Under the pieces are notes generated by a model that ran no database searches, was not told the DNA's origin, and was given only the letters and a program-made list of their open reading frames with translations. DNA of 64,000 nucleotides from contig NC_056752.1 of assembly GCF_018687715.1 (NCBI RefSeq), positions 6,192,501-6,256,500 on the forward strand, read 5' to 3'. The position numbers and the translations under genes were made by a program. The stretch's first letter is position 1; each line of letters starts with the position of its first letter. This document shows positions 12,107 to 56,170 of this stretch, piece by piece. Source of the DNA: Carya illinoinensis. Its lineage: Eukaryota > Streptophyta > Magnoliopsida > Fagales > Juglandaceae.

Positions 12107-12260
12107 TCATCACACTACTATTCGCTACCACGCTGCTCCGATCAACCTGACTCTGGTGTGAATCAAGAATAGCTTTCAGAACACTGTTTCCATCTCTCTC
12201 CCTAGCAAGCTAGCTCATTTAACTTTGACCGTGCCTCCCGTTTTGCCTCCCGTTCCCAGC

Positions 12261-15200
12261 ATGGAAGTCGTGGCTTCGATTGTCAGTGTAGCAGTCGTAA
12301 AAACTGGTGAGGCTCTCTGTTCTACTATCAAGAACATTGCCAAAAGCCCACAACAGCTTCATGTTTTGGAAATGGAGAAGAAATCCCTTATGGCTCTTAG
12401 AGATGAGACAACAAAAGAAATCGAAAGAGCTACGCAGGAAGGAATGGCAATAAAAGATAGAGCCACTGGATGGCTTAAGGAGGTTGACGAGCTGCTTCGT
12501 AAGATGAATGATCAGATTCAAGAAGCAAAGAGTTCCCGATGTTTCTTAAGTTGCAGTACTAAGCGGTGTAGAATAAGCAGGGATGTGGCAGAACAGCTCA
12601 AAGAGGTAAAAAGGCTTCTAGAAGTGGGAAGTTCCATTGCTAGTTCCGTGGCTCATAGTTATCCAGAGGTCAAAGCAGTGGAGCATATTCCTGGACCTTC
12701 AATTCAAGATCAAACAGCATCAGTATCAGAAGATTTAGCCAAAATTATGACTCTATTGTCTGACGATAAAAAGGGGATAATTGGTATATGGGGGATGGGA
12801 GGAGTCGGCAAAACTAATCTGGTGAGAAATTTGAACAATAAGCTCCAAAAAAATTCAAATCTGCGTTTTAGCTGTGTACTATGGGTTACAGTGTCCAAAA
12901 AGTTGGACATAAAAAAGCTCCAGATGGGAATAGCTTCCAGACTGGGTTTTCATCTGGAACAAAGTTCGGAAGCGGATAGAATGGCTATTCAACTTTATCG
13001 AAGACTAAAGGAGGAGAGTTTTCTTCTCATTCTCGATGATGTTTGGAAAAAAATTGATTTGGACAAATTGGGTGTCCCACGGCCTGAGGATCATAGCGGT
13101 AGTAAGATCATATTGACATGTAGATCTTTGGATGTATGTAGGGAAATGCTGACTGATGTTGAAGTTAAAATGAGCATTTTGAGGGATGAAGACGCTTGGC
13201 AACTATTTAGTCGATATGCGAGGGATGTGGTTAGTTCAGAACATATCAAACCACTTGCAGAGGCAATTTGTAGAAAGTGTCAGGGATTGCCTTTGGCCAT
13301 CATCACCATGGGAGCAGCTATGAGAGGAAAGACGAAGCCTGAGTTGTGGAAGCATGCTTTGAATCAGTTGCGAAGATCAGTGCCTGTTGCAGAAGGCGTT
13401 GAGGAGGAGCTCTATAGGCCTTTGAAGTGGAGTTACGACTCATTAGAAGGTAAAGACTTGAAAACTTGTTTTCTTTACTGCTCTTTGTTTCCAGAGGACT
13501 TCTCAATTAATATAGATAAACTAGTATGGTACTGGCTGGCGGAAGGTTTGATAGATGATCGAGAAAACTATGAGGTTTTCTACAGTAGAGGAATTAGTTT
13601 GATTGAAAATCTGAAGGACGCCTGTTTGTTGGAAGATGGTTCCGATGAGGGCACCGTGAAGATGCATGACGTTGTTCGTGATGTTAGCATATGGATTGCA
13701 TCAACCTGCAGCGAGGATGGAAGTAAATCCCTCGTTCGTACAGGGGAAGGGTTGAAAGAGATTTCAACTACTGAGCTATCAAATTCTCTCAAAAGAGTTT
13801 CTTTTATGGATAACGATTTAGAAAAACTACCTGATGATTCTGTGATTCGATGGTCAGAGGCATCAACTCTTTTACTACAAAATAATCCTCGCCTTGAATT
13901 AATTCCTGAAATATTTTTGGAACGATTTAAAGCACTGAGAGTCTTGAATTTCAGTCAAACCAGCATCAAGTCATTGCCCGATTCTCTTCTTCAACTGGAT
14001 GACCTCCGTGCTCTTCTTTTGAGTAATTGCGAGGATCTCGAAGGATTGCCCCCACTGGAAAGGTTTAGTAGACTTCAAGTGCTTGATCTCTCTAGGACTG
14101 GTATCAGAGAATTGCCAAAAGGGTTAGAGCAACTCAGCAACTTAAGGCATCTAAACTTAGCCCAGACTTCCAAACTGGAAGTGGTTAAAGCTGGAGTCAT
14201 ATCCAAGTTGTCCAGATTAGAAGTTTTGGACCTGTCAAACAGTGGCTACATTTGGAAAGAGAAAGGAGCGGTACAAGAGGAGGAAGCCTGTTTTGAAGAG
14301 CTGCAATGCCTGGAGCGGTTACAAGTTTTATCCATCAGATTGAAATGGAACCCGTGTTACACTCCCCAAGATACAATTACTTCCTGGTTAAATGGATTAA
14401 AAGCATTTGAAATTAGCTTCGGACGATCGAGCTATTTTGTTTCAGGTATTTTCTAAGATCTTTTAATTTTAAATATCATTCACATAAAATTAATTTTTAA
14501 TTTTTAATTTTTTTAATTCTAATTTATTTTTTAAAATTTTTTAAATAAAACATAAAAAATCCTATTTTTTTAAAAAATTAAAATAAAAATAATTTTGTAA
14601 TAATTTTATTCAACATTTTTTTTTACTCGTTGAAAATCAAATAAAATATATTTATTTAAAATATTTTATTAATATTTACAAACTATTTTGTAACGCATTT
14701 ATGCTCCATATGGACTATTCTAAGCGATACTTTGAATATCTACAAGTGCGAGATCTATGTCTACTCTCGGATGCGTTTCAAAAACGCGTGACTATGGAAT
14801 GGATTGATCTCTCGGGAGGACAAATCGTGTGGTTGTTCAGCAATGCAAGTTATCTACGCATAAAAAGTGAAGGACTAAATGAGATGCTAAAAGACTTGGT
14901 CATTAACAATGTTGGCAGAAGCTTTACATATTTAAAAAAGCTTGAGATTTTTTACTCTGACAACAGTTTTTGGACTGGAGGACTTGCATCACAATATGAG
15001 CTACTACCCAATTTGGAGGATCTTGTTCTAGTAAAAATGACAGGCGTTGAAAGCATTTCAGAACTAGCCAACCTTTTCGGGCTGAGATTCCAGAAACTGA
15101 AAACAATACATATGTTTGGCTGTCCGAAGATGAAATATCTTCTCTCCCTGGGGAACTCCATTCGCACAATGCCAAACCTAGAGTTAATCCTGGTAGTTGG

Positions 15201-15402
15201 CTGTGACAATATAGAAGAGCTCTTCAATTATCTTCCATTACAGATCAATATGGCTCCAGATCCTATTACCCCAAAACTACAGAAATTGGAATTGGTCAGG
15301 CTTCCCAACTTAAGGAATCTTTGTAGGGACGAAAAGACCTGGCCGGGTAATAAAGTGAAGGTTGAGGTGATCGACTGCAGTCTTTTGAGCACGAGGCAAT
15401 AA
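12261..15402 (+). CDS. CC-NBS-LRR (CNL) disease-resistance protein, two exons
   Basis: An intracellular immune receptor of the CNL class, expected to sense pathogen effectors and trigger defence through nucleotide exchange in its NB-ARC domain. The first ATG of the frame is at 12261 (MEVVASIVS). Upstream codons are open but have no ATG. Residues 1-150 form the coiled-coil region with WLKEVDELLRKM. The P-loop GMGGVGKT is near residue 178, and kinase-2 LLILDDVW near 256 has the Trp typical of non-TIR proteins. RNBS-B is KIILTCRS, GLPL is QGLPLAI near 342, RNBS-D is CFLYCSLFPED and MHD is MHDVVRD near 468. LRRs run from about 520 to the end. Exon 1 (12261-14445) ends at a GT. Joining 14445 to 14747 keeps the frame and gives about 946 residues, normal for the family. 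It resembles the RPS2/RPS5 or At4g27190-like group; the specificity is unknown. Confidence 0.88.
14446..14746 (+). other. Proposed intron of the NBS-LRR gene
   Basis: GT at 14446 (G|GTATTT) and AG at 14745-14746 give a 301-bp AT-rich intron, and the two exons are then in phase (one base left over, two needed). A second in-phase acceptor ends at 14752. The segment has stops in all frames. An alternative is that this is an AT-rich insertion that inactivated a formerly uninterrupted LRR region. Confidence 0.55.
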
Positions 15403-18806: not shown

Positions 18807-18821
18807 TGGTATTAGAGCCAG
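18807..18821 (+). other. Primer-binding site of the TRIM (initiator tRNA-Met type)
   Basis: TGGTATTAGAGCCAG directly follows the left LTR. The plant initiator tRNA-Met 3' end is complementary to TGGTATCAGAGC, which this matches with one change. The internal part without the hAT is only about 96 bp (18807-18892 plus 26146-26155), which defines a terminal-repeat retrotransposon in miniature. Confidence 0.8.
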
Positions 18822-22332: not shown

Positions 22333-24616
22333 ACGGAGTCGTCTACAAATGATGTGCAAGAGTCAACACAAGACATTCCTCTATTTTCACCTCCACCTCC
22401 ACCTCCACAGCCATCCAATGTAAGTAATAGTTCGGTTGGTGGGTCACAACGTGGTAGACAGCAGTCAATGGTTTGGGATCATTTTACAAAAATACCAAAA
22501 GGTGATCCCACTAAACCTAGGGCTGCTTGCAATTATTGTGGTGCTTCGTATGCATGTGATACGAAGACCAATGGTATGAAATCCATGAAGTACCACATTG
22601 AGCACCAATGTAAAAAATGTCCATTTAAGAAGACAGATAATTTCCAGACCACCCTAGGTTGGAAGGTGGAGGGAGAAAGTAGTAGTGGGGGACTTGTGCC
22701 CATTTCATTTTCTGTTGAGGCTTGCCGACAAGCCTTAGCGGAGATGATTATTCTTGATGAGTTGCCCTTTAGGCATGCTGAAAGGGAGGGTTTTAGAAAG
22801 TTCATGCTTGTAGTTTTCCCTAAGTGGGTAGGGATTCCATCCCGTATGACGGTTGCCAAGGACTGCTTTAGTTTGTTTTTGAGGAAAAAACAAAAGTTGA
22901 AAAATGCTCTTAGAGGGCAGCGAATTTCCTTGACCACGGATACATGGACATCCGTTCAAAACCTAAACTATATGTGTTTGATAACACATTTTATTGATGA
23001 TAACTGGAAATTACACAAGAGGATTTTATCATTTTATTTGGTTGAAAATCACAAGGGTGATACACTTGGTAGGGGTATAGAGATGTGTTTGCATGATTGG
23101 GGGCGACCAAAGATACTTGCAATCACTCTTGATAATGCAAGTTCTAATAATGAGCCTGTTTCTTTTTTGAAAAAAAAAACCAAGTATAGGAGAGACACAA
23201 TTTTGGAACATGATTTCTTACATGTGCGATGTTCAGCCCATATTTTGAATTTAATTGTTCGGGAAGGGTTGAAAGAATATGATTAGTCTATTGTGAAGGT
23301 GAGGGGTGTTGTGAAATATGTTAAATCCTCCCCTCAAAGATGGGCAATATTTAAGAGATGTGTGGGTTTAGAAGATATTTAATCCAAATCCCAAGTTTGC
23401 TTAGATGTACCAACTAGGTGGAACTCCACCTATCTTATGTTGGAGAGGGCTGCAAAATTTAGAAAGGCTTTTGAGAGATTGGAGGAAGAAGATCCGTGTT
23501 TCCTTGGTAGTATTCAAGGTGATGACGAAGACGATGTTGATGATGAAGATGTCGTGAATAAAAGAAAGTCTAGGAAGTTAGGGACTCCCAATGCATCCGA
23601 TTGGGAGAAGGTTTCTGTATTTGTGAGGTTTCTTCAATTATTTCATGATGCAACGTTACGTTTCTCGGGGGGTGAATACGTAACTTGCAATATTTTTTTC
23701 TCGGAGTTGGTTGGTATAAAAGATGCTATTAACATGGAGTGTGAAGAACGAAGCCCTGTGGTGGGATTAATGGCCACAAATATGTTGAAAAAGTTTGAAA
23801 AGTATTGGGACAATTTGGAAAATCAGAATATGCTGCTGTATGTTGGGGTTCTTCTTGATCCTAGATTCAAGATGCGATACCTTGATTTTGGTTTGGGACA
23901 AATGTATGCACATGATCCTACAAAAAAAATTGATTTCAGTTGGAGGGTGAGAAATGCATTTACTCGCATTTATGAGGCATACATGGAAAATGAAGAAGGT
24001 AGTTCTCCTCAGTGCACAAGTTCCTCACATGAAGATGTAGGTCCTTCAGTTGACAAGAATGAGAGTAGAAAGGCACAATTGATGGCACAATTTAAGCAAC
24101 AGTTATAATCAGAAGACAGTTTGGAAAGTAAGTCAGAGGTTGATAGATATCTAGCTGAAAGATGTGAGGATCAAGATGATAATTTTGACATTCTAAATTG
24201 GTGGAAGGTGAATTCAGTTAGATATCGTGTACTTTCAAAAGTTGCACGCGATGTACTTGCAATACCAGTATCTACTGTGGCCTCTGAATCTACTTTTAGC
24301 ACTGCTGGTCGTGTGCTTGACCCTTTCCAAAGTAATTTAAATCCGATGAGTGTTGAGGGTCTCATATGTGCACAAAATTGGCTTCGTTCTTGTTCTACTC
24401 CAATAAGCCTTAGGACTTTAATGGATGAAGTAGAGGAATTTGAAAAGCAATTGGATATGGGTATGTAATGCATTTATTTTGTTGTTTATTTTGTTTTATA
24501 ATATATGTTGTGTAAGGCTATTTAACTTGTCTTGTTTTAAATTTTTAGGGGAGTTTGCTGATTCTGTGGAGGCATCAAATTCAATGCCTACCGGCCCAAG
24601 TTTCAATGCTAATTAA
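22333..24616 (+). pseudogene. hAT transposase (BED zinc finger, RICESLEEPER/Ac-like), three nonsense codons
   Basis: Enzyme that would bind the element's ends and cut and paste it. The downstream exon opens after an AG at 22331-22332 in phase. A pro-rich start is followed by a BED-type finger (SMVWDHFTKI, then CNYCG and the His pair MKYHIEHQC). The catalytic-core region includes LTTDTWTS (catalytic Asp) and LDNASSNN. The C-terminal hAT dimerisation domain shows FDILNWW, ARDVLAIPVSTVASESTFS and QNWLR. An intron (24461-24548, GTATGT...TTTTTAG) leads to a last short exon ending in TAA at 24614-24616. Stops interrupt the frame at 23284-23286, 23380-23382 and 24106-24108, all in one register with no frameshift. 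The upstream exon with the true start could not be fixed. Confidence 0.9.
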
Positions 24617-26275: not shown

Positions 26276-28550
26276 TCAACCTCCTTGTATAGTCTGTTCC
26301 TGATCACCTCCTCGGATAGACACACCCCACCTGCTCAGGATAGCCCCTCAAATGCATGGGTCCTCACTTGCTCGGGATAGTGCTTGGGTTGCACTGGTCC
26401 TCACCTGCTTGGGACAATACCTGAGATGGATGGGACTCACTTGCTCGGGGGAATTCTTAAGATGCCCAAGACCCACTTGCTCAGGTGCAGTTCCTCGACT
26501 GCACTAGACTTATCGGGCCACACATTGTACAATCACCCATGTGGCCTAGGCTTGTAGCGCAAGAAAGTTATATGGTGCTGAACGGGTCCTCACTTGCTCG
26601 GGACACTACCAGAGATGCACGAAAATCACCTGCCCAGACACAGTCTCTCACTTGCACAACACTCACTTGCTCGGACAGTCCCTCACTTGCACGAGACTCT
26701 CCTGCTTGGACACAGTTCCTCGGACATAATTCCCAGACTGCATGGGACCCGTTGGAACACACGCTGCATCAGACTTGCATGTCCTATGCAATGGCCTGTC
26801 CACTCACGTGGTTAAGGCCGGTATTGAGATATATGGTGCTCACGGGTTCCTTAAAACAAAAACAAACAAAAAAACAAAAAAAAAAAAAAAAAAAGAGAGG
26901 AAGGAAGAAGAGTCAGAAGGTGGAGAAATTGCAACTAGTTACAGACAATTTTCAATCAAGCAGAAATCAACTATGACGGCTAACACTCTCCAGTTTGTAT
27001 CTCTGAAAATTTGTGTGAATTTGTTTCTACTAATAAAACTACTTCCTATAGTGTGAAACATCGACCACGAGGCCCTGCTTGGGCATTGCCAAGATGTCCC
27101 AACATGACTCCGTCATGACAAATTGTTCAGCACTAACGCGCACGTGGGCACATCAAAACTTTGTCATTGTTGAAATATGACAACCTATAGGCCACACCAG
27201 CACATCTCCAACCTTCGTTGCGCTCCAGCAGATCAATTCAGGTTTGCCACCTCACTTTGTGATTTGGGTCATTTATGTTGACCGAGTTGACCCTTTTTAG
27301 CACGGACAAGCGCCTCCATCAACAAAGTCAAGTCTCTAGACTCGCTGCAATACAACGGTCGAACACAAGTCTCTAGACTTGTCGACCCTCATGCTAGAAA
27401 GTCGAGTCCCTTGATTCGCCATGATATAACGGTCGAACACAAATCCCTAGACTTCTCGACCCTCGCATTAGCAAAGTCGGGTCCTTTGGCTTGCCACAAC
27501 ATTGGTTGGGCTAGAGCATCAGGGCTCACCCACACGACCAGTAGGACACAAGTCTCTAAATTTGTCGACCTTCTTGCCACCAAGCCGAGTCCTTGGACTC
27601 ACCACGATGCATTGGTCGAGCTAGAGCCCTAAAGCTCGCCCACACAACCAGTCGGACACAAGTCCCTAAACTTGTCAACTTTCGCCTTGATATGAGTCCC
27701 TAAACTTAAGCCATAACTGTTACGAGTGGATTACCTTCGGGAACGAGCCTTCGGAGTTAACGGGCCTCCGATCTCCACAACCGCCTTGTGCAGGTTATTC
27801 TTTGGGAACGAGCCGACGGGCTTGGCAATTGCCTAAGGTGGACCCAGGGAATCGATGGGCCGTCTAACCATTTTGCGTGGGTTACTTCATACAAACTCTA
27901 ACACCAATAAAATTGAAAGCGGAAACGTCGGGCAAACATACACTTTCCAATAACGACAAGCATACATACAAACGTACCACCACTATGCACATTACGCGGT
28001 TGAGTAGACCTCCCGCCACATCCAAGCTTTGCGCATGCATCTTACGTGGTCGAGTACATCTCCCACCACATCTGAACTCCACGCTCTCACCCCATGCGAT
28101 CGAGTTCATCTCTCGCCATAGCCAAGCTACGCGCTCGAGTTCATCTCCTGCTAATCTCACTATGTCGAGCCCCACGCTTGCACCCCATGCGGTTGGGTAC
28201 ATCTCCCACAATAGTCGAGCTATGTTCTTGAGTTTTACGCAGTCGAGTTTATCTCCCGCCATAGCCAAGCTATGTGCTTGCGCTCTATGTGGTTGAGTCC
28301 AGCTCCCACTCATCTCGCTAAGTTTAGCCCCACGCTTGCACCCCATGCAGCCAGGTACATCTCCCGCCACAGCCAAGTAACACGCTCGAGCTCTAAACGG
28401 TCGAGTCCATCTCCCGCTCATCTCGCTAAGTTGAGCTACGCGCTCGCGATGAAGGTGGGCTGCTAGAGTCAATAAAGAAATAAATTCTAGCAACTGATCC
28501 CTGGCTATCCATTTCCCTCGTGTTTAAGTAGTTAGGGGAGAAGAGTGTCT
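26276..28550. other. GC-richer region of degenerate short tandem repeats
   Basis: Three blocks of different repeats. 26290-26800 has CACTTGCTCGGGA-type phrases every 50-60 bp. 27300-27720 has GTCGAGTCTCTAGACTCG-like phrases. 28010-28440 has CATCTCCCGCCATAGCCAAG-like phrases every 50-60 bp. A purine/A-rich tract lies at 26850-26900. The open frames here follow the repeats and have no recognisable domain. It may be the untranslated part of an unknown retroelement. Confidence 0.5.
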
Positions 28551-28801
28551 CAGGAGGCAAGGGGGACAGTGTTAGGAGAAAGTGGGAAAGTAAAGAAAAT
28601 AGAAAAATAATAAAAAAAATCCATATGATTTGCCTTTTTTAAAAAATAAATAAATAAATATCGTTCAATTTGTTTTACTATTTTTATTTTTTGACAGAAA
28701 AAACTGATAATATAACATTTTCCCACATTATAATTCATATCAGAAATAAAGAATTCGGGAGTACTATATATATCCAAAACACTGACAGATAATATAACAT
28801 A

Positions 28802-29013
28802 TTCTGGTTCTGGTTGCTAACAGCTTTGTTATATCTTTATCTCTTTCTTATCTTGATAAATTCTGGAAACATTCTAAGTTCATCTTGTTTCCTAGTTATT
28901 TTCTTGTCTTTCCTGTTGTACACCACCGCAGTCAAATAGACCCTACGAGATATCTCCGGAGTCCCAGTTGTCTGTGTGAGCCGGGTAGGCGTGTAAAGGA
29001 CGTGAAGGGATAT
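28802..29013 (+). repeat. Left terminal direct repeat of the pararetrovirus
   Basis: 212 bp, the same length as 35669-35880, with only a handful of substitutions between them (about 97% identical by eye). The left copy lacks the primer site that precedes the right copy. Confidence 0.92.
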
Positions 29014-29127
29014 AGAGATTGTGCTTTGGTCTTGTGGCCCTCCGATATGTGTGAGTCCTGCAACTAGGAAAAGGAAAAGACCTAGGTTTAGAATGTACCA
29101 AAGAATTTTGTTTCAGTAGTTACGAAG

Positions 29128-32100
29128 GTGAGCAAGATGTACAGATCTAGCTCATCTGCTAGTTCCCAGTCAGGTATGCCTCCTGATATTATTAATGAAG
29201 AAGATTGTGAGATTTCAGAAAATGATTTAGATTCTGAATTGCTTGTGATTGATATGATTAATTTACATGTTGATTTTATGTCTAAAGAAAACCATGATAA
29301 GCGAAAAACTTATCATAGGATTTACTCAGTTTCTAAGAAACAGAAGATTTGAAAAGAATGGAAGAAAAAGATGTACAAGGATAACAAGCACATCTTATTC
29401 TTCGATTTCCTTGAAAATCATTATGTTTCAAAGAAAGATAATTCAAAATAGTATTTGAATGTTCTAAAATCAAGTTTTACTAAAGAAGAAGGCATGAAAG
29501 TTGTGAAAACTAGCCACCCTCCTTTAGAAACCATCCTTGTTTCAGTAAAAGGAAAAGAAGTGAAAGCTTCACCTTTTAAAATCTCGGATCCAGGTCCGAA
29601 TGAAAATGTTTTAGCCGAAACTAAAAAGATCATAGAGCCAAACAATTTCGTCAACCAGACCCTCCATACAATAGGTTAACAACTTGACCGTATAGAGGAT
29701 AAAGTTGAAAAACCTGCTTCAACAAGTTTAAAAATGGTTGAAAAACCTCTGATCATCCTGCCAGAAGACAGGTCAAAGATCCATTTTGGAGAGACCAGTA
29801 CTTTGGCTAAAATTGATCAGTTGTTTACTATTGTAAAGCAAGAAAAACCATCTGTTTCAGTTATAGACAAAAACAGCCCAGGGGTTAATTTCGATGATTC
29901 TTTTTCTGTGCATACTTGGAATGATTCTAATGATGATGTTTCTTTGTCTGATAATTCCTTAGTTCAGAAAATTGATTTACTTGAAAAAGAATTTCAGGGT
30001 CTTCAAGTTGAAAAACCCGAACTTGCTAGGATATATTCGAGAGACATTAAACCAATAGGTCTCACGAAAAACTGGTACTCTAGACCCACTCCTCCTGATT
30101 TACAGTACGAAGAGAGAGGTTTACACTCTCAATTCTCCGTATCTGTTGACCAAATGTATGAATGGAATATTGATGGATTCTCTGAGTAAGAAATCCTCAA
30201 TACTCAGAATCGTATGTCCATGGTTGCTGTTGCTTACTACAACAACAAACTCAGCCAGCCTGAGATTGTTGATATCTTGACCCACGGATTTTCAGGGATG
30301 CTTCGTGCTTGGAGGGATAAACATCTCACTGTCGAAGACAGGGAAACTATTCGTTCAGCCATAAAAAAAGATGAAGATGGTTTACCCATTTTAGACACTG
30401 AGGAGAACCGAAGGGAAGGAACCCATGGGTCCCCTGATGGTGTCAATACCCTAATTTATACCATAGTTAAACATTTTGTTGGAACACCTTCCAACATCAC
30501 AAATAGAATTTCTGATTATTTGAATTACTTACGATGCAATAAAATGTCTGATTATCATTGGTATAAAGATGTTTTTATGTCTCGTGTTATGCTTAGAGAT
30601 GATTCCCAAAAACCTTACTGGAAAGAGAAGTTCATTGATGGATTGCCTCGTTTGTTCGCCATTAAGGTAAAGGGCTCACTTACTGATATTACGGGTTATC
30701 TGAATTAAGATAATTATACTTACGGTGACATTGTAAGTATTATTCAGAAACTTGGTATTAGTATGTGCAATGATCAAAGGATGATTGCTCAACAGATGAA
30801 AGAAAGAAAGCCAAATACGAGATGGGAAACTTTTGCGAACAATTTGGCCTTCCTCCTATTGCTCCATCTGTATAGTATAGAAGAAGTTCTAAAAAGTTTT
30901 CAAAACCTCGCAGGAACTATAACAGATCGCGTGAGGAGTTTTATAAAAAACCTGTTTCAAAACCGGTTTCAAGAAAGAAACCATTTTAGAAAAAGGTTTC
31001 AAAAGCCCCTGCAAAGGGAACATGTTTTAATTGTGGCCAACCTGGACACTATGCGAATAAGTGTACAAAAAAGCCATAAGGTTTTAAGAAAAAGCTTAAT
31101 GAGTTAAATATCAATGCCGTTGATCAAGAAGATCTGTTTCGTTTACTCGAACATAGATCTCCTACATCTTCGGATGATGGTGAATTTATTTCTAGTGGAT
31201 CTGATTACCACTCGGACTCTGATCATCTTAACTCACCAAACATTAAGCTTGGTTGCAATGATTCTTGTTGTATTTCTAAAGTCAAAACAATCAATGTTTT
31301 AGACGAAGGAAGAGAACAAGGACCTGTTTTGAGTAAAGAGTAGGAACATGAAAACATGCTCCTCTCTATCATCTCACAGATTCAAGACCCTGAGCTTAAA
31401 AAGAAATATCTCAAGAAACTTAAGGAAATGATGACTCGTAAAGAACCATCGACTTCCAAGGGCAAGATTTCTTTTGAGGAAAATTTGGGACGCTTTCAAA
31501 AACAAAAACCCAAAGATATTTCATTAAAGGATTTACAGCATGAAGTATCTCTTGTTAAAAGAGAGATTACTGAACTCAGAGAAGAGATCAAAACTCTCAA
31601 ATCTGAGAATGCTTCTTTTAAACAAGATTTAGCATGTTTAAAGTTGGATAAAGAATTTGATCATGAATGTCCTTCTGGTGAAGATTCAAACCAGTCAGAC
31701 CATGCTGAACCCTCTAGTCCAACTAAGGAGCTTTGTTTACTTCACCGTTCTGTTCCACAAAAGTGGTTTTGTTTGGTAGAAATTATTGTTAATCATGAAT
31801 ACAAATTCTCTACTGTTGCATTGAGCGATTTAGGGGCGGATCTTAATTGTATCCGAGAAGGCTTAGTTCCTACCTCCTATTTTGAGAAGTCTGAAGAGAA
31901 TTTATTCTCGGCAAACGGATCTAAGATGAAGATTCATTATGAGTTAAACACGGCTCATGTCTGCCAGGACAATGTTTGTTTTAAAATTTCTTCTGTGATT
32001 GTTAAGAATTTAACCCATGATGTTATTCTTGGTATGCCTTTTCTTAACATGATTTATCCATTCCTTTCTGAAGCCGATGGGATCACCACTGACCCCTTTG

Positions 32101-33679
32101 GACAGAAAGTCAAGTTTAAGTTTGCTTCTAAGTTTGAACGTGATACTGCTAGAAGATCTGTGTTTTTGCTTTATGCAAAAGGAAAACATTTAGATTTTCT
32201 TAAACAAGAAATTAAGTTCAAACGTGTTTCTGATAATTTGCATGATTCCTTGCTTAGATCTAAAATTGAAGATTTTCAAAAAACTTTGATTTATGAAGTC
32301 TGCTCGGAACTTCCTAATGCTTTCTGGCACAGGAAGAAACATGTTGTTTCTTTACCTTATGTTAAAGATTTCTCTGAAAACTTAATTCCAACCAAAGCAA
32401 GACCTATTCAAATGAATAGAGAAACTTTGGAGTTTTGTAAAAATGAGATCCAGGATCTTCTTGCTAAAAATATCATCAGGCATAGTAAGTCACCCTGGTC
32501 GTGTGCAGCCTTTTATGTTCAGAAAAATGCTAAGATTGAGCGAGATACACCCCGTTTAGTCATTAATTACAAACCATTGAACAAGGTGTTAAAATGGATT
32601 TGGTATCCCATCCCTAACAAGAATGACTTGGTTCATAGGTTAAGTGATGCAGTTATTTTCTCCAAGTTTGACCTTAAGTCCGGATTTTGGCAGATCCAAA
32701 TTAGGGAGTCAGATAGGTACAAGACTGCTTTCACTACTCCATTCGGTCACTTTGAGTGGAATGTCATGCCATTCGGGCTGAAGAACGCTCCTAGTGAATT
32801 CCAAAATATTATGAATGATATCTTCCTATCATTCACTAATTTCACCATCGTCTATATAGATGATGTTCTTGTATTCTCCAAATCTATTGATGAGCACTGG
32901 AAACATCTTAAAACGTTTCTTGAGATCATCAAAAGAAATGGACTTGTTGTTTCTGCAAAAAAGATTAAACTATTTTAAACCAAGATCAGATTCCTTGGTT
33001 ATGACATCTTTGAAGGCAAAATTAGGCCCATCCAAAGAGCCATTGAATTTGCTGACAAGTTTCCTGATGTCATCCTTGACAAAAACCAGCTTCAAAGATT
33101 TCTTGATTCTTTGAATTATATTTCAGATTTCTACAAGGATACGAGAAAACAATGTCGCCCTCTTTTTGCGAGATTGCGTTCTAATCCTTCTCTGTGGAGT
33201 GATGTTCACACCAACATTGTTAAACAAATCAAGACACATGTCAAAAATCTTCTGTGTCTTCGAATTCCTACTTCAAATAGCTTCAAGATTGTCGAAACTG
33301 ACGCCTCAGACGCAGGCTATGGCGGCATCCTGAAACAGTTGTTTCACCTGGTTCCTCTGAACAAATTGTTCATTTCCATTCCGGAACCTGGAATCATGCA
33401 CAACATAATTATAGTACTATCAAAAAAGAAATTTTTTCTGTAGTACTATGTATTTCTAAATTTCAAAGTGATTTGCTTAATTAACATTTTCTTTTGCGCA
33501 TTGATTGCAAAACTGTTAAAACTGTTTTAGAACAAGATGTTAAAAACATTGCATCAAAACAGATTTTTGCACGATGGCAAGCTATTTTAAGTGTTTTTGA
33601 TTATGATATTGAATTTATCAAAGGTTCTGATAATTCGATCCCTAATTTTCTTACCCGTGAATTCTTGCAGAAGACATGA
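29128..33679 (+). pseudogene. Pararetroviral polyprotein ORF1 (capsid, protease, RT, RNase H), broken
   Basis: The viral polyprotein would supply capsid, protease and the replication enzyme. The first part to about 30200 has no domain I can name, and no movement-protein motif was recognised. The capsid region follows (30214-30990: YWKEKFIDGLPRLFA, then YGDIVSIIQKLG and FCEQFG). A zinc knuckle CX2CX4HX4C lies at 31023-31064, and a coiled-coil-like segment near 31540-31650. The aspartic protease at 31740-32090 has DLG in place of the usual DSG/DTG active site (Asp codon at 31827). The RT has YIDDVLVF near 32853. RNase H has the TDAS block near 33300. Stops are at 29350, 29449, 29677, 30187, 30706, 30987, 31077, 31341 and 32976, with frame changes near 30812 and 33340. 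Confidence 0.85.
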
Positions 33680-35034
33680 GTAAGAAGAAGAAACCCGTCT
33701 TACCGGTTACTTCACCTCCTCCTGCACCTGTTTTACCAATGCTTATGCCTCTGGCATCAGCATCAACCTTGGCTTCCTCCCCACTGGAGATAGCCAATAG
33801 ATTTACCAGTCTGGGACAAGTTCCCAGGCCTATTCCCCCCCAGTTCTTTTGCTTCTACCTTAGCCACGCCATACGATCCGTATGTGAACCCCTTGGCTAC
33901 GGTAACCCCCAGATTTCCCTCTGCCAACAAGGCAGAATATTTCTTGAAAGCATGGTTTCAGAATCTGTTTTACATTGAGAAATCTGTAAAAACAGATCCC
34001 TTCCAAATGACTTCTGATTATTTTCCCCGAGGTTTCCATTGGATCCCTGAAGATCTAAATAAAAACCTCACCTACTATCTTGGAATCTTGATCGGCACCG
34101 GTTCCATCTCCATTAAACCTATTTATTGCAAAGTTGATCCCTCAAAGATCATCTTTCACAATTGTTTTATCATTTACGTTATAACAGAAGAAGAATGGGA
34201 AACCCACCCTTCTACCTTCAAAACAATCAAGGATTCTAACACTCAGTATAATTATTATGATTATATTGAGGCCTGGTTAAAGTTTCCTTTGTTTCAAACA
34301 CCAGTTATGCAGCACTCTTGGTTTTTCAATTTCAACAAGAACTGCAAACAATCATTTCCTTTATGGTTTCAGAAATGGTGGCATTTCTTTGGCCCCATTA
34401 ATGATTTGTTTCTTGATAGTCTTCAGAAGGCTATCAAGCATTATACTATTTCTAGTGTATAAAAAATGAAAGGACGAGACACCTTACTCCCGCCCTTACT
34501 CCATTTTTGCGCCAAATACAAAACTCCCTGATTTGTAGATGGCAGTACACTAAAAAAGACCATATTTTAATCTGACAGTATTTTGTCAAGTGGTGGGATA
34601 AATTTCCCCACGCTAACGATATTGTCTCAAGAATTTCAGCTGATTTTCCCCTTGTTGTTCCTAACCTTAAGGATAAATAAGAATTCCCTTCCCCCATCCC
34701 AAGTCAAGCTTTGATTGCATATCCAGCCATTCCAGGTTCAAGTGATCAAGCTTCAGGTTCAGGATCAAAGAGTTCTTCATCAAGGCAGAAGAAAAAATCA
34801 TCTTCAGCCAAAAAGAAGAATTCTACAGATTCATCCTCTTCTCCAAAATTGAAGAAGCAGGATTTCCTTTTACAAATTGCACTGTTGAAGAAATCCATTG
34901 AAGGAAACTCCAACAGTGAAGATTCAGTTAAGGAGTCAGAAGCTTCGTCAACAGACTCGACGGCCTCTGCTCCCTGCAGCAATACCTTTGGTCATGACTC
35001 AGAAGACTATCCCCCTAGGCTGGGAGATAATTGA
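33676..35034 (+). pseudogene. Pararetroviral ORF2, unknown function, broken
   Basis: It starts with ATG at 33676, overlapping the end of ORF1 by 4 bases. The N-terminus is Pro/Ala/Ser-rich. After a frameshift near 33840 the frame continues with aromatic-rich sequence including PRGFHWIPEDL and FPLWFQKWWHFFGP up to a stop at 34462. Weaker continuation is visible with KWWDKFP, then a Ser/Lys-rich tail to 35034. Florendoviruses carry a downstream ORF of unknown role; I assign this one by position. No enzymatic motif is seen. Confidence 0.6.
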
Positions 35035-35107
35035 ATCGTGCCCGCCCATTTGGCCTCTTCTCAACCCCGGAGTCTCAACTTTTTGGGGTAGAAAGATGGT
35101 TTACTTA

Positions 35108-35336
35108 TTACAGTTTGCTTTCGGCACAATCAGACAGCACAAGAAGACAGAGTTGCTTTCGGTGCTTTGGGTGCAGAAAGAATATTTCACTTTCGGCGAA
35201 AGAAAACAAAACTACTTTCGACGGATGCATGCTTCTGAGAAGTGAATAGTAAAAAAGTCACTGTTCACTTTCACTATTCATCCCGTGATTTATGGGATTC
35301 CCTGTTTGTAAAAGCGCTTCCTTCATCTATAAAAGG
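35108..35336 (+). promoter_or_regulatory. Pararetroviral promoter: TATA box with upstream CTTTCGG repeats
   Basis: The TATA box TATAAAAGG is at 35328-35336. (G/A)CTTTCGG or CTTTCGA occurs at about 35117, 35155, 35191 and 35215, that is 110-220 bp upstream. A transcript starting near 35360 would cross the primer site and, in a circular genome, run on into the leader at 28802, as expected for a pregenomic RNA. Confidence 0.6.
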
Positions 35337-35652
35337 GCGCTTCATTTCGATTGTTAAGCAGAACTTTCTAGCCGAACTCACCTTCAGCAAGAACTGATTC
35401 CCTACTTACTTGCAAGCCCAAATTCACCTTCCTTCTCTTCTTTTCTTTATTTCAAGCTTGTAAGTCTTTTGTTTAAATATTTACTTTCAATTAATAATAT
35501 TTGAAAGTTTTGGTTCATTATTTCCTTATTTCCATATCAAGCATTTCATGCATTGGCAGTCTGAGACTCCAAATATATTCTGTTCATATTTAATTCTTGC
35601 CATTAATCTTTGAGCTCATTTTCTCTCTATCTTCACTTGATTCCACATTTTA

Positions 35653-35667
35653 TGGTATTAGAGCCAT
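35653..35667 (+). other. tRNA-Met primer-binding site of the pararetrovirus
   Basis: TGGTATTAGAGCCAT, one change from the canonical TGGTATCAGAGCC, immediately upstream of the right terminal repeat. Minus-strand DNA synthesis of caulimovirids starts at such a site. Confidence 0.85.
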
Positions 35668-35668
35668 C

Positions 35669-35880
35669 TTCTGGTTCTGGTTGCTAACAGCTTTGTTATA
35701 TCTTTATCTCGTTCTTATCTTGATAACTTCTGGAAACATTCTAAGTTCATCTTGTTTCCTAGTTATTTTCTTGTCTTTCCTGTTGTACACCACCGCAGTC
35801 GAATAGACCCTACGAGATATCTCCGGAGTTCTAGTTGTCCGTGTGAGCCGGGTAGGCGTGTAAAGGACGTGAAGGGATAT
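35669..35880 (+). repeat. Right terminal direct repeat of the pararetrovirus
   Basis: Second copy of 28802-29013. It ends exactly where the left copy's match ends, at GGGATAT, and is followed by an AT repeat of host or filler sequence. Confidence 0.92.
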
Positions 35881-38800
35881 ATATATATATAATGTAATTT
35901 CCTCGATCTTAAACCATATATAGTTGACGTTAATCACGGTGGTCATGAGTTGAGATGGCATTAATGTCAAATGGCATTGCAGGGCTTTTTTCAATTCTAA
36001 TATTTCCTTTTGAATTAAAACACGTGATCATGACTATAAATCGCATGAATTGTAATATATATTGACAACAAGGCCTAAAAGAAACCTCACCTTATCCATG
36101 CTTGTATTAATTGACATGTTAAAAAGCAAATACGCCTATCTTTTAATTATTATTCTTAATTAACGTGTTACCTTCCAATTGCATGTTTTTAATTCCCAAA
36201 GGCATGCAATTTCTAGCTAGCTAAGCTTAAATTCCAGGCTATTAAATAGGAGCAAGGGGCTGTCTTTCATTCAAACTTATAGATTTATACTGGCCGGTCA
36301 TGTACGTATGAACTAGCTCCTAAGTTTTATATATTAGTAAATTTTTCTAAGAATGTAATTAAGTGACAATCGTACTGAATTAAAGCATTGAGGTCTATAT
36401 ATGAGGTTGTTTTGTTGTGTTTTGTTTTGTGTTTTTTTTTTTAAATGTAATGTTGCTTTAGAAGGAACAGATCAAATAAGGAGATCAAGCATATATTAGG
36501 TGTTACCCATAACACAAGTGTTGATAATTTCCAAATATCTTTTGTGTTTTATTTTGTTGGAATACTATAAATTATATTTGTAGAGCCAATATATGAGTAT
36601 GTGTTCCCTTTTTTTTTTTTTTTTTTTTTTGAGATTATGAAACCTCATTTGAACAATAATCAATAGCCAAAATAGAATGTATGTACCTATTTTAGTAATT
36701 GCTTCTTTAGAAAGATGCAGTTTCTTCTTTAGTAATTCAGTACATACTTTTTTCCTCTTTTATCTTTTTGGAGCATGTTACAGACTCTACACCCTCGAAT
36801 TAACAGTATTATATATATATATAGTCCCCCAAAGTTTCATTTGCATGTTGGGTTTGCTGAGGTGTGTGTCTGCATTATGCATGCCTGGCCTAGTACTGGA
36901 TTAGCATATATGTAAGAAAGGAAACTACGGCTGCTTTTTAATACTCACAACCTTTTCATTAGACATATCAGTGAATAACTTGATTTTCTCACACGTGTGG
37001 GATTTAGCACTGTGGTTTTTATTCCATATTGATTCCGGCTACAAACATTGGTGGGTGCTTATGGTTATATGTTGTATTATTATTGAATTGTTCATATTTC
37101 AATCTGTACTCTTATGATTTGTCAAATCTGTTGTGTTTATGGGGTGAAAAGCTAGCATACAACTTTCTAATCTCCTCCTTATAAAAAACTAGCATATACA
37201 ACTTTTTGTGTCAAAGATGCATGTAAACTTGTGCCTGTTCAATCTGAGTGAACTTTAGAGTGACAGGCTGGGTTTAAATTGGATTAAGTTAATAATTTAG
37301 AAGAGCAAAAACTTGTTCACATGTACAATTATCAATTTTGCTTTCTACGTATACATTCTAAAAGCTTGGAGATTTAAGTTAGTGAAGACTTTGGCGCCAT
37401 GATAAGAGTAGATATGTTATATGTATTTTCAGATTTCCTTGTAGTTGCTTATTACTGATTGTGTTCGAAATGTATTGAGAAGTTATTACAAGCATTGAAT
37501 CCACCTTAGCTGCTGAGTGCCCCCCCGCTCAAAAACAAAAGAAAAAGTACAGAAAATTCCTGTTGATTGAAAGATATTGTAGTTATTCTTGGGCTATGCC
37601 TACGGTTTTATTTATAAGATATTCTGGCGAGAAGGTCATTGTTATCATCATACAAAATTGTTGATTTCCATGAACAAAATTTTTTCTTTTTTAGGTAAAA
37701 TAAAATTTTATTGTTCAATTTTCAAGTATCAGTGATAGATATGGGCTTCATGTGCTAATCCAAAGCAGTGAATTTCGTATCAAAAGGCCCACTCTTTAAC
37801 TCACAGGGTAAGTGACCAATTTAAAAAATGTGTATAAAGATATAAACCACATCAACAAATTATCTACCTTGTAAGTATCATCTTTCTCCATGCCTATGAT
37901 AACACCAAAATCTGAATGCCTGAAGTAGTAAACAAAATAAATGCAAATTATCAGATTATTAGATTCAGTATTCACAGAAGGTTTAAACTTCAGGAGCTCC
38001 TCTTCAAATGGCTCAACGCCCTAGCAACTTAAAGAATCTGTTGGTATTTTCTTAAACAAATATCCACCCTCATTGCCCTCTCTTTGAATAAAGCTCACTT
38101 TCCATCTAAAATATGATGGAGAGTTTCTGCTGCAAAGCCTCCACCAGATGACTAGCACTAGAATTATCCCTTTCCCCCTTCCTTACTGCATCAATAACTC
38201 CCTTCACATCCCCTTCAAACTGGACATCCCCTAATCCCAGATTATTAATGTGTCTGAGAGGAACATATTCTATTGCTGATTCTGTTAAATTTGATGGTTC
38301 TATGTTATAACTTATAAAGATGGTTCTATTGATGATTTGGAAATTTAAGTATGTTGTTGCATTTGTTAGTTGTGCACGTTTAAGACTTATAGTTTTCAAG
38401 TTTTAAGATTACTGCTAATACCCGTAATATGTATTCTAATGCTTGTTGTGATGTTTAAAAATGGCCATTTAGGGGATGTACGCAAGATTACCTTTCAATC
38501 ATGACTCTTTAGTCTTGTTCTTATATTGAATGATCTTTCTGCTTGTTATTCATCATGATTTTTGTCAAACATAATATATAGCAGGCCACCCACATATTAT
38601 TTGGCGATGGGCACCAGTTGTTGAAATAGGAATATATATATTCCTCATCATATTAATCCAATTAATATGCTTATTTAGTAAAATATAAATGGTAGTTTTT
38701 TAATAGTAAATGTAAGTATTCCCCTACACTTTAATTTGGAATTAATGGATAATCTTCTAGAAATCTTTTTATTCTATTTTATTTTATTTAAATGTGCTAT

Positions 38801-39799: not shown

Positions 39800-42700
39800 A
39801 TGGACAAGAGTTGGATGCAAATCTCTGATAGATTTGGATCTACGGAATATGCTAAAGGAGTAAAGGAGTTCCTTACCTTAGCCCAAACTTATGCTACAAG
39901 TGAGGAAATTCGCTGCCCATGTGTCTGATGTTCAAATAATTACTTCCTACCTATAAGTCAAGTAGAAAGACACTTGTTCATTAAAGGTATTGACTAGAAT
40001 TAAACGACGTGGATTTTTCATGCTGAAGAAGAAGATTTAATCATAAGTGATGATGATGATAATGTACATGATCCTGATGAAGAGGATGACTTCATTGATG
40101 ATGTTGATGTTATGTTACGAGATATTCGGGCTGCGGGATTTCCTGATGTTCCCATAAGCGATTCATTCCATGCTGCGGGTTCCACATCGGTCGATACATT
40201 TTCATCTCGGACTTTTGACCAGCTGTTGGCTGATTCCCGGCATCCTCTTTATGAAGGTTGTACAAAGTATTCTAAACTATCATTCACTGTCAAGTTGTTG
40301 CACATTAAAACACTTGGTGGTTGGAGTGTAAAGTCTTTCGACATGCTTTTACACTTGTTGAAGTTGGCTTTTCCCAATGCCCTTTTGCCAAACTCATATC
40401 AAGAATCACATAACTTGGAAAAAGGGCTGGGCTTTACTTACACCAAGATACATGTTTGTCCGAATGACTACATACTTTATTGGAGGGAAAATGTGGATAA
40501 AGATGAGTGCTCGAAGTGTAAACTTTCAAGGTGGAAATTCAGTAACACTAAGAAGAGGCGAATTCCTCAAAAGGTTTTAAGACATTTTCCGTTGAAGCCA
40601 AGGTTGCAGAGATTGTTTATGTCACAAAAAACATCAGTTGATATGCGGTGGCACAAGGATCAGCGTGTCATTCAGCAAGATATTCTAAGTCATCCTGCTG
40701 ACTCTGAGGTGTGGACTACATTTGATCAAGAGCATGCTTGGTTCGCAAAAGATCCAAGAAATGTCAGGCTTGGTTTAGCTAGCGATGGTTTCAACCCATT
40801 TAATAATTTGGCTAAACCTTATAACGTATGGCCAGTGATTCTTGTCCCTTACAACTTACCTCCGTGGTTGTGCATGAAGGATCCATTTTTTATCACTTCA
40901 CTCTTGATTCCTGGACCAAGATCACCAGGAAATGAAATCGATGTTTATCTTCAGCCTTTCATAGATGAATTGATTGATCTATGGGATAATGGTGTTGATA
41001 CATACGATGCAAAGGCCAAAGAGACTTTCAGATTGCATGCAGTGTTGCTATGGACAATCAACGACTTTCCTGCTTATGGAAACCTTTCCGGGTGGAGTAT
41101 TAAGGGGAAGATGGCATGTCCATCGTGCAAGGAAGAAACAGATTCGATGTGGTTGCCATATAGTCGAGAGCATTGTTACATGGGTCATCGCCGATTCTTG
41201 CCACCGGGCCACATCTGGAGAAAGAAAAAGATTATTTTTAATGGCAGTGCAGAGTATCGTGATCCACCTACAATGTATTCAGGAGAAGATGTGCTCATTC
41301 AAATCCAAAATATTCTTGATGCAAATTTTGGCAAAGCTATAAAGAAAAGAAAGCATACCACAGAGGAGTTCAATTGGACCAAGAAAAGTATCTTCTTTCA
41401 ATTGCCATATTGGTCGACTATAAAGATTAGACATAATCTAGATGTAATGCACATTGAGGAGAACATATGTGACAACATCTTAGGAACTTTGATGAATATC
41501 TCTGGCAAAACTAAAGATCATCCTAATGCACGTCGTGACCTTTCCACTCTCAATATAAGGGAGGAGTTACACCTTATTCAGGATGGACAACACATTAGTA
41601 AGCCACAAGCATGTTATACGTTGTATGGAGCTGAGTGGACTAGTTTTTGTAATTGGTTGCATGGTGTGAAATTCCCGGATGGCTTCGCTTCAAACATTGC
41701 CAGATGTGTTAGTGTAAGTGACTACAAAATCTCGGGGATGAAAAGTCATGATTGCCATATTTTCATGCAAAGATTATTTCCTGTTGCAATTTCTGGATAC
41801 TTACGCCAAGATGTACGGTTGGCACTAACTGAGCTAAGCACTTTCTTCAAAGAATTGTGTGCTAGAACATGTAAGAAGGAAGTCTTAGCGCGGCTTCAAT
41901 CTGATATCATCGTTATTCTTTGCAAGCTTGAGATGATTTTTCCGCCTACCTTTTTTGACATAATGGTGCACTTAGCCTATCACTTGCCACGTGAGGCCCT
42001 GCTTGCAGGGCCAGTTCAATATAGGTGGATGTATCCTTTCGAGAGATATCTCGAAAAATTCAAGAGATATGTTAAGAATAAGACCTACCCGGAAGGTTCA
42101 ATAGCTGAGGCCTATATCCATGTTGAATGCTTGAATTTTTGTTCCATGTACCTCCATGATATTGAAACTAGATTCAATCCTCCTGAACGTAATGTCGATG
42201 AAGGAGAAGAGGGTGTACGAGAGGGACTATCTGTTTTTTCACAGAAGGTGCGACCCATGGGTTTTGCATCACGTCACCAATTAGATGATGATGCTTTTAT
42301 AAAAGCCAGATGGTATGTTCTTAATAACTGCACAGAGATTGGAGAATACCTAAAGTAAGTAACCAAACTAGTTACCAACTTAGACACTTTCCATTCTCAA
42401 TATACTAATTTATGTTGCATCCCCTACATATACTTATTAACCGTTACATAGGCTTTTGTCTAGTGAGCACTACATGCAAGTGAGTGAAGAGTATCCCAAT
42501 AATGCCGATAGTATGCATGCTGCAAAATTTTCAGACTGGTTCAAGTCACAAGTATGCAAACTCATTTGGAAGTCACACCTTATTTCCTTTGACCACATAT
42601 GTTTGTTTAATGCGAAAACATGTATTGTTTTTACTTTATTTAATTCCTTATTTGAACTTGTGATAGATTCAAGCTAGGCGTGCTGATAATCCTGAAGAAG

Positions 42701-55000: not shown

Positions 55001-56170
55001 TTTCTCCCATAGAAACCCATCTCCATCATACACTTGATTTATCTGATTCCTTTTCCTTCTTTGAGTAGCACATGCATGAAAAAACTTGGTATTTTTGTCA
55101 CCAAGTTTATACCAGTCTATCTTTGCCCTTTGTCTCCATTTCAAATCCTCTTGTGTAAGTAAAACCCCTACTTCTTTTTGAAGCCTCTTGATCATTTCCA
55201 CATTATTAGGTCCCTCACTATCCTGCAGATCTCTTATCTCTTTTGAAAATCTGGTAATGTCTTTCCCCCTATCCTTCTCTTTCCTTTTTGCCCACTCTGT
55301 TAACCTCTCACTGCATGAAGTGAGTAGTCCTTTTATCTTACTTATAGGATCAAAAAAAATTTTCTGTAGAGTCCCACCCCCTTTCACTACCTCTTCACAT
55401 TCTTCATTCTTCACCCATGAAGCTTCCAAGTTAAATCTTCTACTTCTTTTAACAAAAGTGTAAGAGGAATCAAAAGCTGTCATCAATATAGGTTTATGGT
55501 CAGAGCAGTGAGCAGTGAGCCCTACCACTTTCACTTTTTTGAATATATTCCTCCATTCATGATTGCCTAAAAATCTGTCTAGCCTCTCCTTAGTAAAGGT
55601 ATGGTCATCATGCTTATTGCTCCATGTAAAGGGGCATCCCTAACACCCTAAATCTGTTAACTGTTTTTCCACCAATACCTCCCTAAACTAACCCATACTC
55701 TTCTCATCTCTCAGTTTAACCCCCACTTTTTCAGATTGTAACAATATTTTGTTAAAATCTCCAGCCACACACCAGGCCTCTCCTTTTTTCGGAACCAAGG
55801 AAGCTAGAAGCTCCCAAGACAAATTTCTCTTTGAAGAGTCAGGGTGCCCATAAAACCCAGTAAAGAACCATTCCTTTTTTCCTCCTTCCTTTCTGATTTT
55901 GCTGCTAATATGCCATTGGGAGAAATTTAAAATCTCCAACTGCACCCCTTTACCCCAAAACAAAGCTAAACCCCCTCTCTTTCCAATAGGTTCTACAACT
56001 AGACATTTATCCAGTTCCAACCTTCTTTTTAAGGCCTCTACTCTTCCAGCCGTAACCATAACTTCCATGAGAAAAACCACATCGAGCTTATTCACCTTTA
56101 CCAATAGGCAAAGGTCCTGAACTGTCCTAGGATTGCCCAATCCTCGGCAGTTCCAGCTTAGGCAAATCAT
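52060..56170 (-). pseudogene. LINE ORF2: endonuclease, reverse transcriptase, zf-RVT, RNase H
   Basis: It starts at the ATG at 56170 with MICLSWNCRGLGNPRTV, the apurinic-endonuclease N-terminus, and GDFNKIL near the end of that block. The frame breaks at 55688 and resumes 55534-54233 with the RT blocks GPNGFGASFYQ, FRPISLCNV, NQSAFVSGRLMTDNI and LKLDISKAYDRVEW. A stop lies at 54233, then LLFADDCLVF (catalytic FADD) in 54169-53801. After another stop near 53801, 53742-52207 holds the zf-RVT (CGICGLEEEIVNHVLWSC) and RNase H (VNWDASL, VRDENEE, FEGDAFGI). The last block (RVAHTLAKMG) is shifted to another frame near 52150. Normal family layout with at least four lesions. Confidence 0.92.

Follow-up and report, generated by a model that had tools for sequence, protein, structure and literature searches.

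The element at positions 28802 to 35881 of the window, that is, the whole 64,000-nucleotide stretch of pecan (Carya illinoinensis) DNA analyzed here, is probably a degenerate endogenous caulimovirid of the florendovirus type, formed when end joining captured viral DNA with an opening at the minus-strand start.

Terminal redundancy and primer site of the window copy

The element lies at C1:6,221,302-6,228,380 and is delimited by a direct repeat pair on the forward strand, 28802-29014 and 35669-35881, matching over 213 nt with 6 mismatches at a spacing of 6,867; with 9 mismatches allowed, the pair extends to 28798-29019 and 35665-35886. The left copy, part of the 5' leader, forms the left end of the integrant. 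A tRNA-Met primer binding site (PBS), TGGTATTAGAGCCA (35653-35666, forward strand, 1 mismatch to TGGTATCAGAGCCA), sits 2 nt ahead of the right copy. The sole other site in the window with at most 2 mismatches is at 18807, so that no PBS lies by the left copy. On a circle numbered from the first PBS base (c1), the left copy corresponds to c17-c229. The sequence-only reading had reported near-identical end repeats of equal length (212 bp), a primer site ahead of the right repeat only, and a TATA promoter at 35328; these observations were borne out, with the repeat length now measured as 213 nt and a TATAAAA box, presumed from its sequence to be the pregenomic RNA promoter, at 35328-35334 (forward strand).

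At the right junction, an (AT)7 run (35877-35890) shares ATATA with the virus. The host DNA directly adjoining the left end (28785-28801) is a near-duplicate of 28703-28719 (2 mismatches in 16 nt), a likeness equalled in 3 of 2,000 shuffles, and is possibly filler DNA. No tRNA genes were found in the window, and an Rfam search gave no match.

Coding content, movement-protein deletion, and family placement

All coding pieces lie on the forward strand. The start of ORF1 (29137-29352, MYRSSSS...) leads directly into DUF7588 (23.9 bits, below the 27-bit cut-off). It is followed by a piece between stops containing DUF7746 (45.3 bits) and the caulimovirus coat-protein domain (30190-30708), another with aspartic protease and reverse transcriptase (RT) (31344-32978; RVP 26.4 and RVT_1 112.9 bits), the best PDB match of which is the CaMV RT, and an interrupted RNase H (32979-33443; RT_RNaseH_2, 32.2 bits). 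Coat domain (26.8 bits, cut-off 27), protease, RT, and RNase H are thus in caulimovirid order. A broken second ORF (33661-35034) comes after RNase H; relatives of its piece 33794-34462 occur in pecan (84-87%) and in Prunus (37-38%), making up 13 of the 229 retrieved proteins. The earlier claim that domain order and lack of integrase agree with a caulimovirid stands as to integrase, none being found in the scanned pieces of the element, but the movement protein is missing.

Caulimovirids carry a movement protein (MP) of the 30K type. In the window copy, it is absent by deletion: comparison with gene-bearing copies places an in-frame 1,119-nt deletion at ATGATT (29222-29227, forward strand), and the copies that keep the gene have ATGATT (AATGATT in some) at both breakpoints. 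The MP lies between the anchors in all 15 relatives that hold both of them, and 28 of the 32 copies readable across the deletion site retain 1,108-1,122 nt there; it is missing in 2 of the 32. Judging from these comparisons, the absence is a loss in the window copy and not a family trait. Because of this deletion, 6,867 bp, previously taken as the viral unit, reflects a deletion derivative and not the native unit, which is estimated at about 7.99 kb. The gene was probably lost through deletion between the ATGATT repeats, before or after integration. An MP-less viral lineage was considered, since one other copy (L015, C1:55.16 Mb) has the same deletion. The leader tree opposes it: L015 groups with the MP-bearing copy L013 (96/97), and a grouping of L015 with the window copy was rejected (AU p 0.025). 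Given this separation, the deletion probably arose in two separate events, between repeats of 6-7 nt, although the two copies may share it through recombination.

The view of the element as a caulimovirid and not an LTR element, put forward in the sequence-only reading, is settled by two findings: close relatives encode movement and coat domains, and other copies have ends that cluster at the primer site (see below). In the RT tree, the element leans towards CaMV (88/91; 75/90); grouping with Ty3 was not rejected (AU p 0.168 and 0.201), and with so few references the tree is a weak test. This unrejected grouping, together with the equal length of the terminal repeats and the presence of integrase in two Citrus gene models (P0282 and P0311), would be the case for a Ty3-type LTR retrotransposon with 213-bp LTRs. 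Yet the PBS lies ahead of the right repeat and not behind the left one, the repeat termini are TTCTGG...GATATA and not TG...CA, and the repeat is single in most copies seen. Furthermore, integrase is absent from three complete ORF1 relatives that have MP and coat domains and RTs 63-68% identical to that of the window copy, whereas the RT piece of P0282 is 29% identical; we read both Citrus models as fusions with Ty3-type neighbours. PBS position, end letters, missing integrase, and where other copies end together rule out an LTR element, leaving it a negligible residual probability. No relatives were found among viral contigs. The genus assignment rests on organisation, since the tree includes no named florendovirus sequence; a second ORF after RNase H, as in the window copy, is florendovirus-specific according to Geering et al. 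2014 (PMC4241990).

Ends of other copies in pecan

We scored the best 40 of 55 and the best 40 of 119 candidate copies, a sample that is biased to window-like copies because only the best-ranked candidates were included. Most loci represent separate insertions, given that their flanks differ; some (C15, C8) are mutual duplicates. Among the matches listed, 23 of 43 leader copies have their left end at the PBS (c-12 to c22), 15 continue through it, and 5 end further in. The left end lies at the first PBS base or a few nucleotides upstream in 16 of these 23; that of the window copy lies directly behind the PBS. Right ends cluster likewise: among the matches listed for 40 ORF2-anchored copies, 29 stop no more than about 15 nt from the PBS (c6853 to c15), 4 (window copy included) pass it, and 7 end elsewhere. 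Ends spread uniformly over the visible stretch would put about 0.7 at the PBS per side (for left ends, the value of 0.70 used 35 ends with 7 upstream breaks; a count nearer 11 gives about 0.8 and leaves the conclusion unchanged). As a control, over the 1.5 kb upstream of the ORF2 probe, virus was lost in only 2 of 30 loci. Both ends are at the PBS in 9 of 15 hand-paired copies. Ten ORF2 copies lacking a leader match were checked where unit spacing predicts a left end, and none showed it.

Across the family, this clustering excludes circles or concatemers broken at random. For the window copy, the right end of which is at c229, away from the PBS, and has microhomology to (TA)n, such breakage would leave the left end near the PBS by chance, which we consider quite unlikely. 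At right ends lying at the PBS, the overlap does not exceed about 15-18 nt, compared with 213 in the window copy, which is an outlier in this respect. Accordingly, of the earlier proposal of a circle opened at the minus-strand start and integrated with a short overlap, the opening point agrees with the clustering of ends at the PBS, but an overlap as long as 213 nt is not typical.

The expectation that junctions of other copies would cluster at the primer site was thus confirmed on both sides; the accompanying one, closure of a circle of about 6.9 kb, held in part, that size not being the native one. The circle was closed at the PBS point, as the 15 leader copies that continue through the PBS run from c6867 into c1; the element has a single tRNA-Met PBS, and circularity is seen at the c6867-c1 junction. 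The same 15 copies, along with longer-than-unit florendovirus loci in Prunus persica (a 1.2-mer and 5.36 copies, published in PMC4241990), would suit an origin of the window copy as the remnant of a longer tandem array, shortened after integration. However, blastn of 1-kb pieces found no viral sequence in the window beyond 28798-35886, and we regard this origin as unlikely.

By script, (TA)4 or longer runs occur within 40 nt of 19 of the 29 PBS right ends (20 with L107, added by eye), against a background of 180 of 9,137 window stretches; (TA)n is rarer at left ends (7 of 22). Several PBS left ends adjoin inverted viral pieces instead of host DNA. Ends this precise at one viral position could point to a retrotransposon integrase acting on viral ends, a route discussed in a 2023 review (PMC10377300); the spread of right ends with microhomology to (TA)n, and the variable left ends with filler or inverted viral pieces, make it very improbable.

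Integration route and comparison with known systems

We therefore favor capture of open viral DNA by end joining. The integrating DNA would be open at the minus-strand start, either as an uncircularised reverse transcript or as an open circle parted at the minus-strand gap, overlapping by no more than about 15 nt. End joining would capture it at (TA)n breaks, where TAT within the PBS would often pair with (TA)n. The window copy would have gained its left end directly behind the PBS; its right end would derive from a molecule that extended 229 nt beyond c1, through strand displacement at the gap or as a dimer, and that joined (TA)n at the viral ATATA. Dozens of base-placed ends at the PBS in one genome restrict the substrate to DNA with an opening at the minus-strand start.

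In one copy (listed both as L079 and as L050, C8 near 2,997,360), the right end is TGGTATCAGAGCCAGGTT: 14 nt occur in virus and tRNA alike and are followed by GGTT, as in initiator tRNA-Met, where the virus has TCTT. The total of 18 nt equals the tRNA stretch classically copied in retroviruses. These 18 nt matching tRNA-iMet hint at pre-circular linear DNA. Tentatively, the integrated molecules might be linear reverse transcripts before circularisation, with left ends determined at the PBS by the RNA template's 5' edge and right ends from plus-strand synthesis onto the tRNA primer; this is possible but doubtful. If this holds generally, the fossils would document that caulimovirids pass through a linear intermediate like that of retroviruses. 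The bases after PBS position 14, tRNA- or virus-derived, offer a simple means of distinguishing linear intermediates from broken circles.

The entry of caulimovirids into plant chromosomes is called speculative in the 2023 review (PMC10377300). A preference of ends for discontinuities and AT repeats is already published; the base-level picture obtained here is sharper. For rice RTBV-like endogenous sequences, Kunii et al. 2004 (PMC526188) placed over half of the ends in the intergenic region and others at discontinuities, found AT repeats at 93% of ends, and proposed open circular DNA as the substrate. The pecan copies resemble these in ends at discontinuities and in AT repeats, but belong to another genus and host, and the rice ends were reportedly mapped to regions, whereas here they are mapped to bases at the PBS on both sides. 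With Florendovirus (PMC4241990), relatives of the window copy share the ORF1 order MP, coat, zinc finger, protease, RT, and RNase H, and the family shares a second ORF in another frame, a tRNA-Met PBS, (TA)n beside insertions, and loci longer than the unit; the window copy differs in lacking the movement protein. Loss of an essential domain recalls the non-autonomous pararetroviruses of grasses, which Chen et al. 2017 (PMC5491270) describe as viral species missing RT/RH or CP, whereas in pecan the MP is lost in only 2 of 32 readable copies, apparently in two separate events.

Structure and surroundings of the pecan copy

The degenerate caulimovirid in the window is bounded by a left repeat (28802-29014) and a right repeat (35669-35881) that lies 6,867 nt from it. 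Each is 213 nt long, with six mismatches between them (97.2% identity), in agreement with the sequence-only reading of two nearly identical 212-bp end repeats. The same reading had a tRNA-Met primer binding site (PBS) directly before the right repeat and none before the left one, and this arrangement was confirmed: the PBS, TGGTATTAGAGCCA, occupies positions 35653-35666, 2 nt before the right repeat, and no PBS was found in the window sequence in front of, or behind, the left repeat. Neither repeat has TG...CA ends, and a TATAAAA motif is located at 35328. On the viral circle, numbered from the first PBS base (c1), the left end could be placed only to approximately c13-c17 because CAT(A/C)TTCTGG is present on both sides of the left junction. 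The right repeat finishes with GGGATATA and is followed at the junction by (AT)7 (35877-35890), where the virus itself has GAGATT. The last 16 host bases to the left of the virus have a near-duplicate nearby (matched by 3 of 2,000 shuffles) and may represent filler. Given a host substitution rate of 1.5-7 × 10⁻⁹ per site per year, the six differing sites of the repeat pair (2.8%) date the insertion to roughly 2-10 million years ago, if the repeats were identical at integration.

Tandem repeats of approximately 35-50 nt, now degenerate, occupy 26352-28417, a short distance to the left of the virus. A second TGGTATTAGAGCCA (18807-18820), followed by GGTTT and without similarity to the virus unit, probably served as PBS for an unrelated LTR element. 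The window also encodes a disease-resistance-type gene with NB-ARC, winged helix, and leucine-rich repeats (12162-15402). Mobile-element pieces, found at 22333-24108, 40004-42358, 54236-55639 (minus strand), and 60698-61228, include a BED finger with a hAT-like transposase, a tnp2-type transposase, a reverse transcriptase (RT), probably from a LINE, and an RNase H-like piece.

Junctions at the primer binding site

The sequence-only reading proposed asking whether the junctions of other copies cluster at the PBS, and they do, with 23 of 43 left ends and 29 of 40 right ends located there. In the 674-Mb genome (17 contigs), the left repeat yielded 43 matches, two of them the window's own (best 40 of 55 candidates scored), a lower bound biased to close copies; left ends were assigned after orienting the loci and reading the letters. 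Among the 23 PBS left ends, 16 (including locus L039b) are at c1 or up to approximately 12 nt upstream, two are at c14, and one each is at c5, c8, c9, c13-c17 (the window copy), and c22. Fifteen leader copies continue past the PBS, with viral sequence still present upstream of it, and five end at c41-c71. Inverted viral pieces adjoin several PBS left ends (e.g., L009/L023, L011, L015, L026, and L039b), as if free viral DNA ends had been joined to each other.

A probe from the second open reading frame (ORF2) gave 40 matches (best 40 of 119 candidates scored). The 29 right ends fall between c6853 and c15 (L107 read by eye), typically as CCGCTTTTA TGGTAT/ATATATAT or CACTTTA TGG/ATATATAT, with an overlap of about 15-18 nt or less. 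Four copies pass through the PBS (window, L049, L051, and L092), and seven end elsewhere (L052, L055, L058, L081, and L100, plus L085 and L102, which lack a match to the stretch preceding the PBS). The right ends of L096 and L097 fold back, the first into an inverted PBS piece and the second into a hairpin surrounding viral letters, a pattern resembling self-copying of the open end. Ten ORF2 copies that have no leader match weigh against the clustering: at the position given by unit spacing, the expected left end was found in none of them, so the left side of these copies has been truncated or rearranged. A (TA)4+ run occurs within 40 nt after the right end in 19 of 29 copies by script (20 with L107), vs 180 of 9,137 control window stretches, and within 80 nt of the left end in 7 of 22 (L039b left out), vs 337 of 9,131.

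Under a uniform distribution of ends across the visible stretch, the PBS stretch should hold 0.65 right ends and approximately 0.7-0.8 left ends, compared with the 29 and 23 observed. The 1.5 kb lying upstream of the ORF2 probe served as a control; the virus is lost there in just 2 of 30 loci. Both ends are at the PBS in 9 of 15 copies paired by hand from the left-repeat and ORF2 matches. The loci are partly non-independent, with one pair on contig C15 having a common right flank and one on C8 a common left flank. The inverted pairs L076/L094 (C15:46.1 Mb) and L036/L040 (C8:3.0 Mb) have common host or junction flanks, indicating inverted duplication of entire loci.

The minus strand begins at the tRNA on the PBS, leaving a discontinuity there, as described in excerpts of PMC5902531. 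Viral DNA open at the minus-strand start would have been captured by end joining. Because the window copy extends to a right end 229 nt past c1, where a viral ATATA matches (TA)n, its donor would have been longer than one unit or extended by strand displacement. The right end of L079 (the same copy as L050) reads TGGTATCAGAGCCAGGTT, followed by inverted viral sequence, and has GGTT where the virus has TCTT; GGTT is the sequence expected from copying initiator tRNA-Met. TGGTATCAGAGCCAGG is given for another caulimovirid in an excerpt of PMC13308828, and the window's other PBS, at 18807, likewise continues GGTTT. The right end of L106 carries the viral T at position 15. Judged from these letters, the L079 end could be a hint of a tRNA copy, with one case for (L079) and one against (L106).

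Domains, relatives, and the lost movement protein

The between-stop pieces of the window copy contain DUF7588 (weak), DUF7746, a caulimovirus coat domain (26.8 bits, cut-off 27), protease, RT, and RNase H; no integrase was found in the pieces scanned. ORF1 is interrupted by several in-frame stops and frame shifts and ORF2 by one frame shift; the copy is therefore dead. The protease-RT piece retrieved 720 relatives (E ≤ 0.001), of which the closest among the matches listed are pecan proteins (identity up to 94%); among the best 120 listed, those with a named organism are from plants, except for one archaeal MAG record (P0102). Three relatives with complete ORF1 (P0258, P0260, and P0264) show the order movement protein (MP), DUF7588, DUF7746, coat, RT, RNase H, and their RTs are 63-68% identical to that of the window.

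An integrase in related copies would have spoken against the viral reading; none was detected in these three relatives at E ≤ 1e-5. Two Citrus gene models, P0282 and P0311, hold one (under the cut-off in P0311), and because P0282 and the window have only 29% identity in the RT piece, we read both as putative gene-model fusions with a Ty3-type neighbor. An RT phylogeny inside Ty3/gypsy would also have spoken against the viral reading: in RT-only trees, the window clade groups with CaMV (support 88/91 and 75/90), whereas the AU test does not reject placement with Ty3 (p 0.168 and 0.201).

In the window copy, ...EISEND is joined straight to LDSELL..., and the MP between them is gone; all 15 relatives holding both anchors have 225-373 residues there. 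Of the 43 leader matches, 32 are readable across this site, six retain the left anchor only, and five neither anchor. Twenty-eight readable copies keep 1,108-1,122 nt; L005 keeps 225 nt, L039 keeps 270 nt, and the window copy and L015 keep 3 nt. ATGATT (AATGATT in some) is present at both breakpoints in all eight MP-bearing copies inspected. The window copy and L015 are not sisters in the leader tree (AU p 0.025), so the identical deletion probably arose twice. The 6,867-bp unit originally proposed thus corresponds to the MP-deleted size, and the native unit is approximately 6,867 + 1,119 = 7,986 nt.

The virus family is large in the pecan genome, where a 212-nt RT probe has 292 candidate sites (40 scored). 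A 12-copy subfamily (L060-L069, L072, and L073), 98.6-99.8% identical (66 pairs, 2.6 kb), is a recent burst; part of the family is therefore younger. Most of these copies have different flanks, and the c6312-6383 stretch is repeated in most.

Comparison with known endogenous caulimovirids

In the parts of Kunii et al. 2004 (PMC526188) available, more than half of rice RTBV-like ends were intergenic and others lay at discontinuities, AT repeats accompanied 93% of the ends, and the open-circle idea is credited to Jakowitsch et al.; the corresponding parts of Geering et al. 2014 (PMC4241990) describe (TA)n and longer-than-unit florendovirus copies. Therefore, the principle of preferred ends is already known; neither base-level mapping of both ends to the PBS nor a florendovirus of pecan was met in the open-licence literature searched. 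According to an excerpt of PMC4241990, the presence of a second ORF distinguishes Florendovirus from petunia vein clearing virus, and that of the pecan element fits the genus, an assignment by organization only. The native unit of approximately 7,986 nt falls inside the 7.1-9.8 kb span of Caulimoviridae genomes given in an excerpt of PMC7660458.
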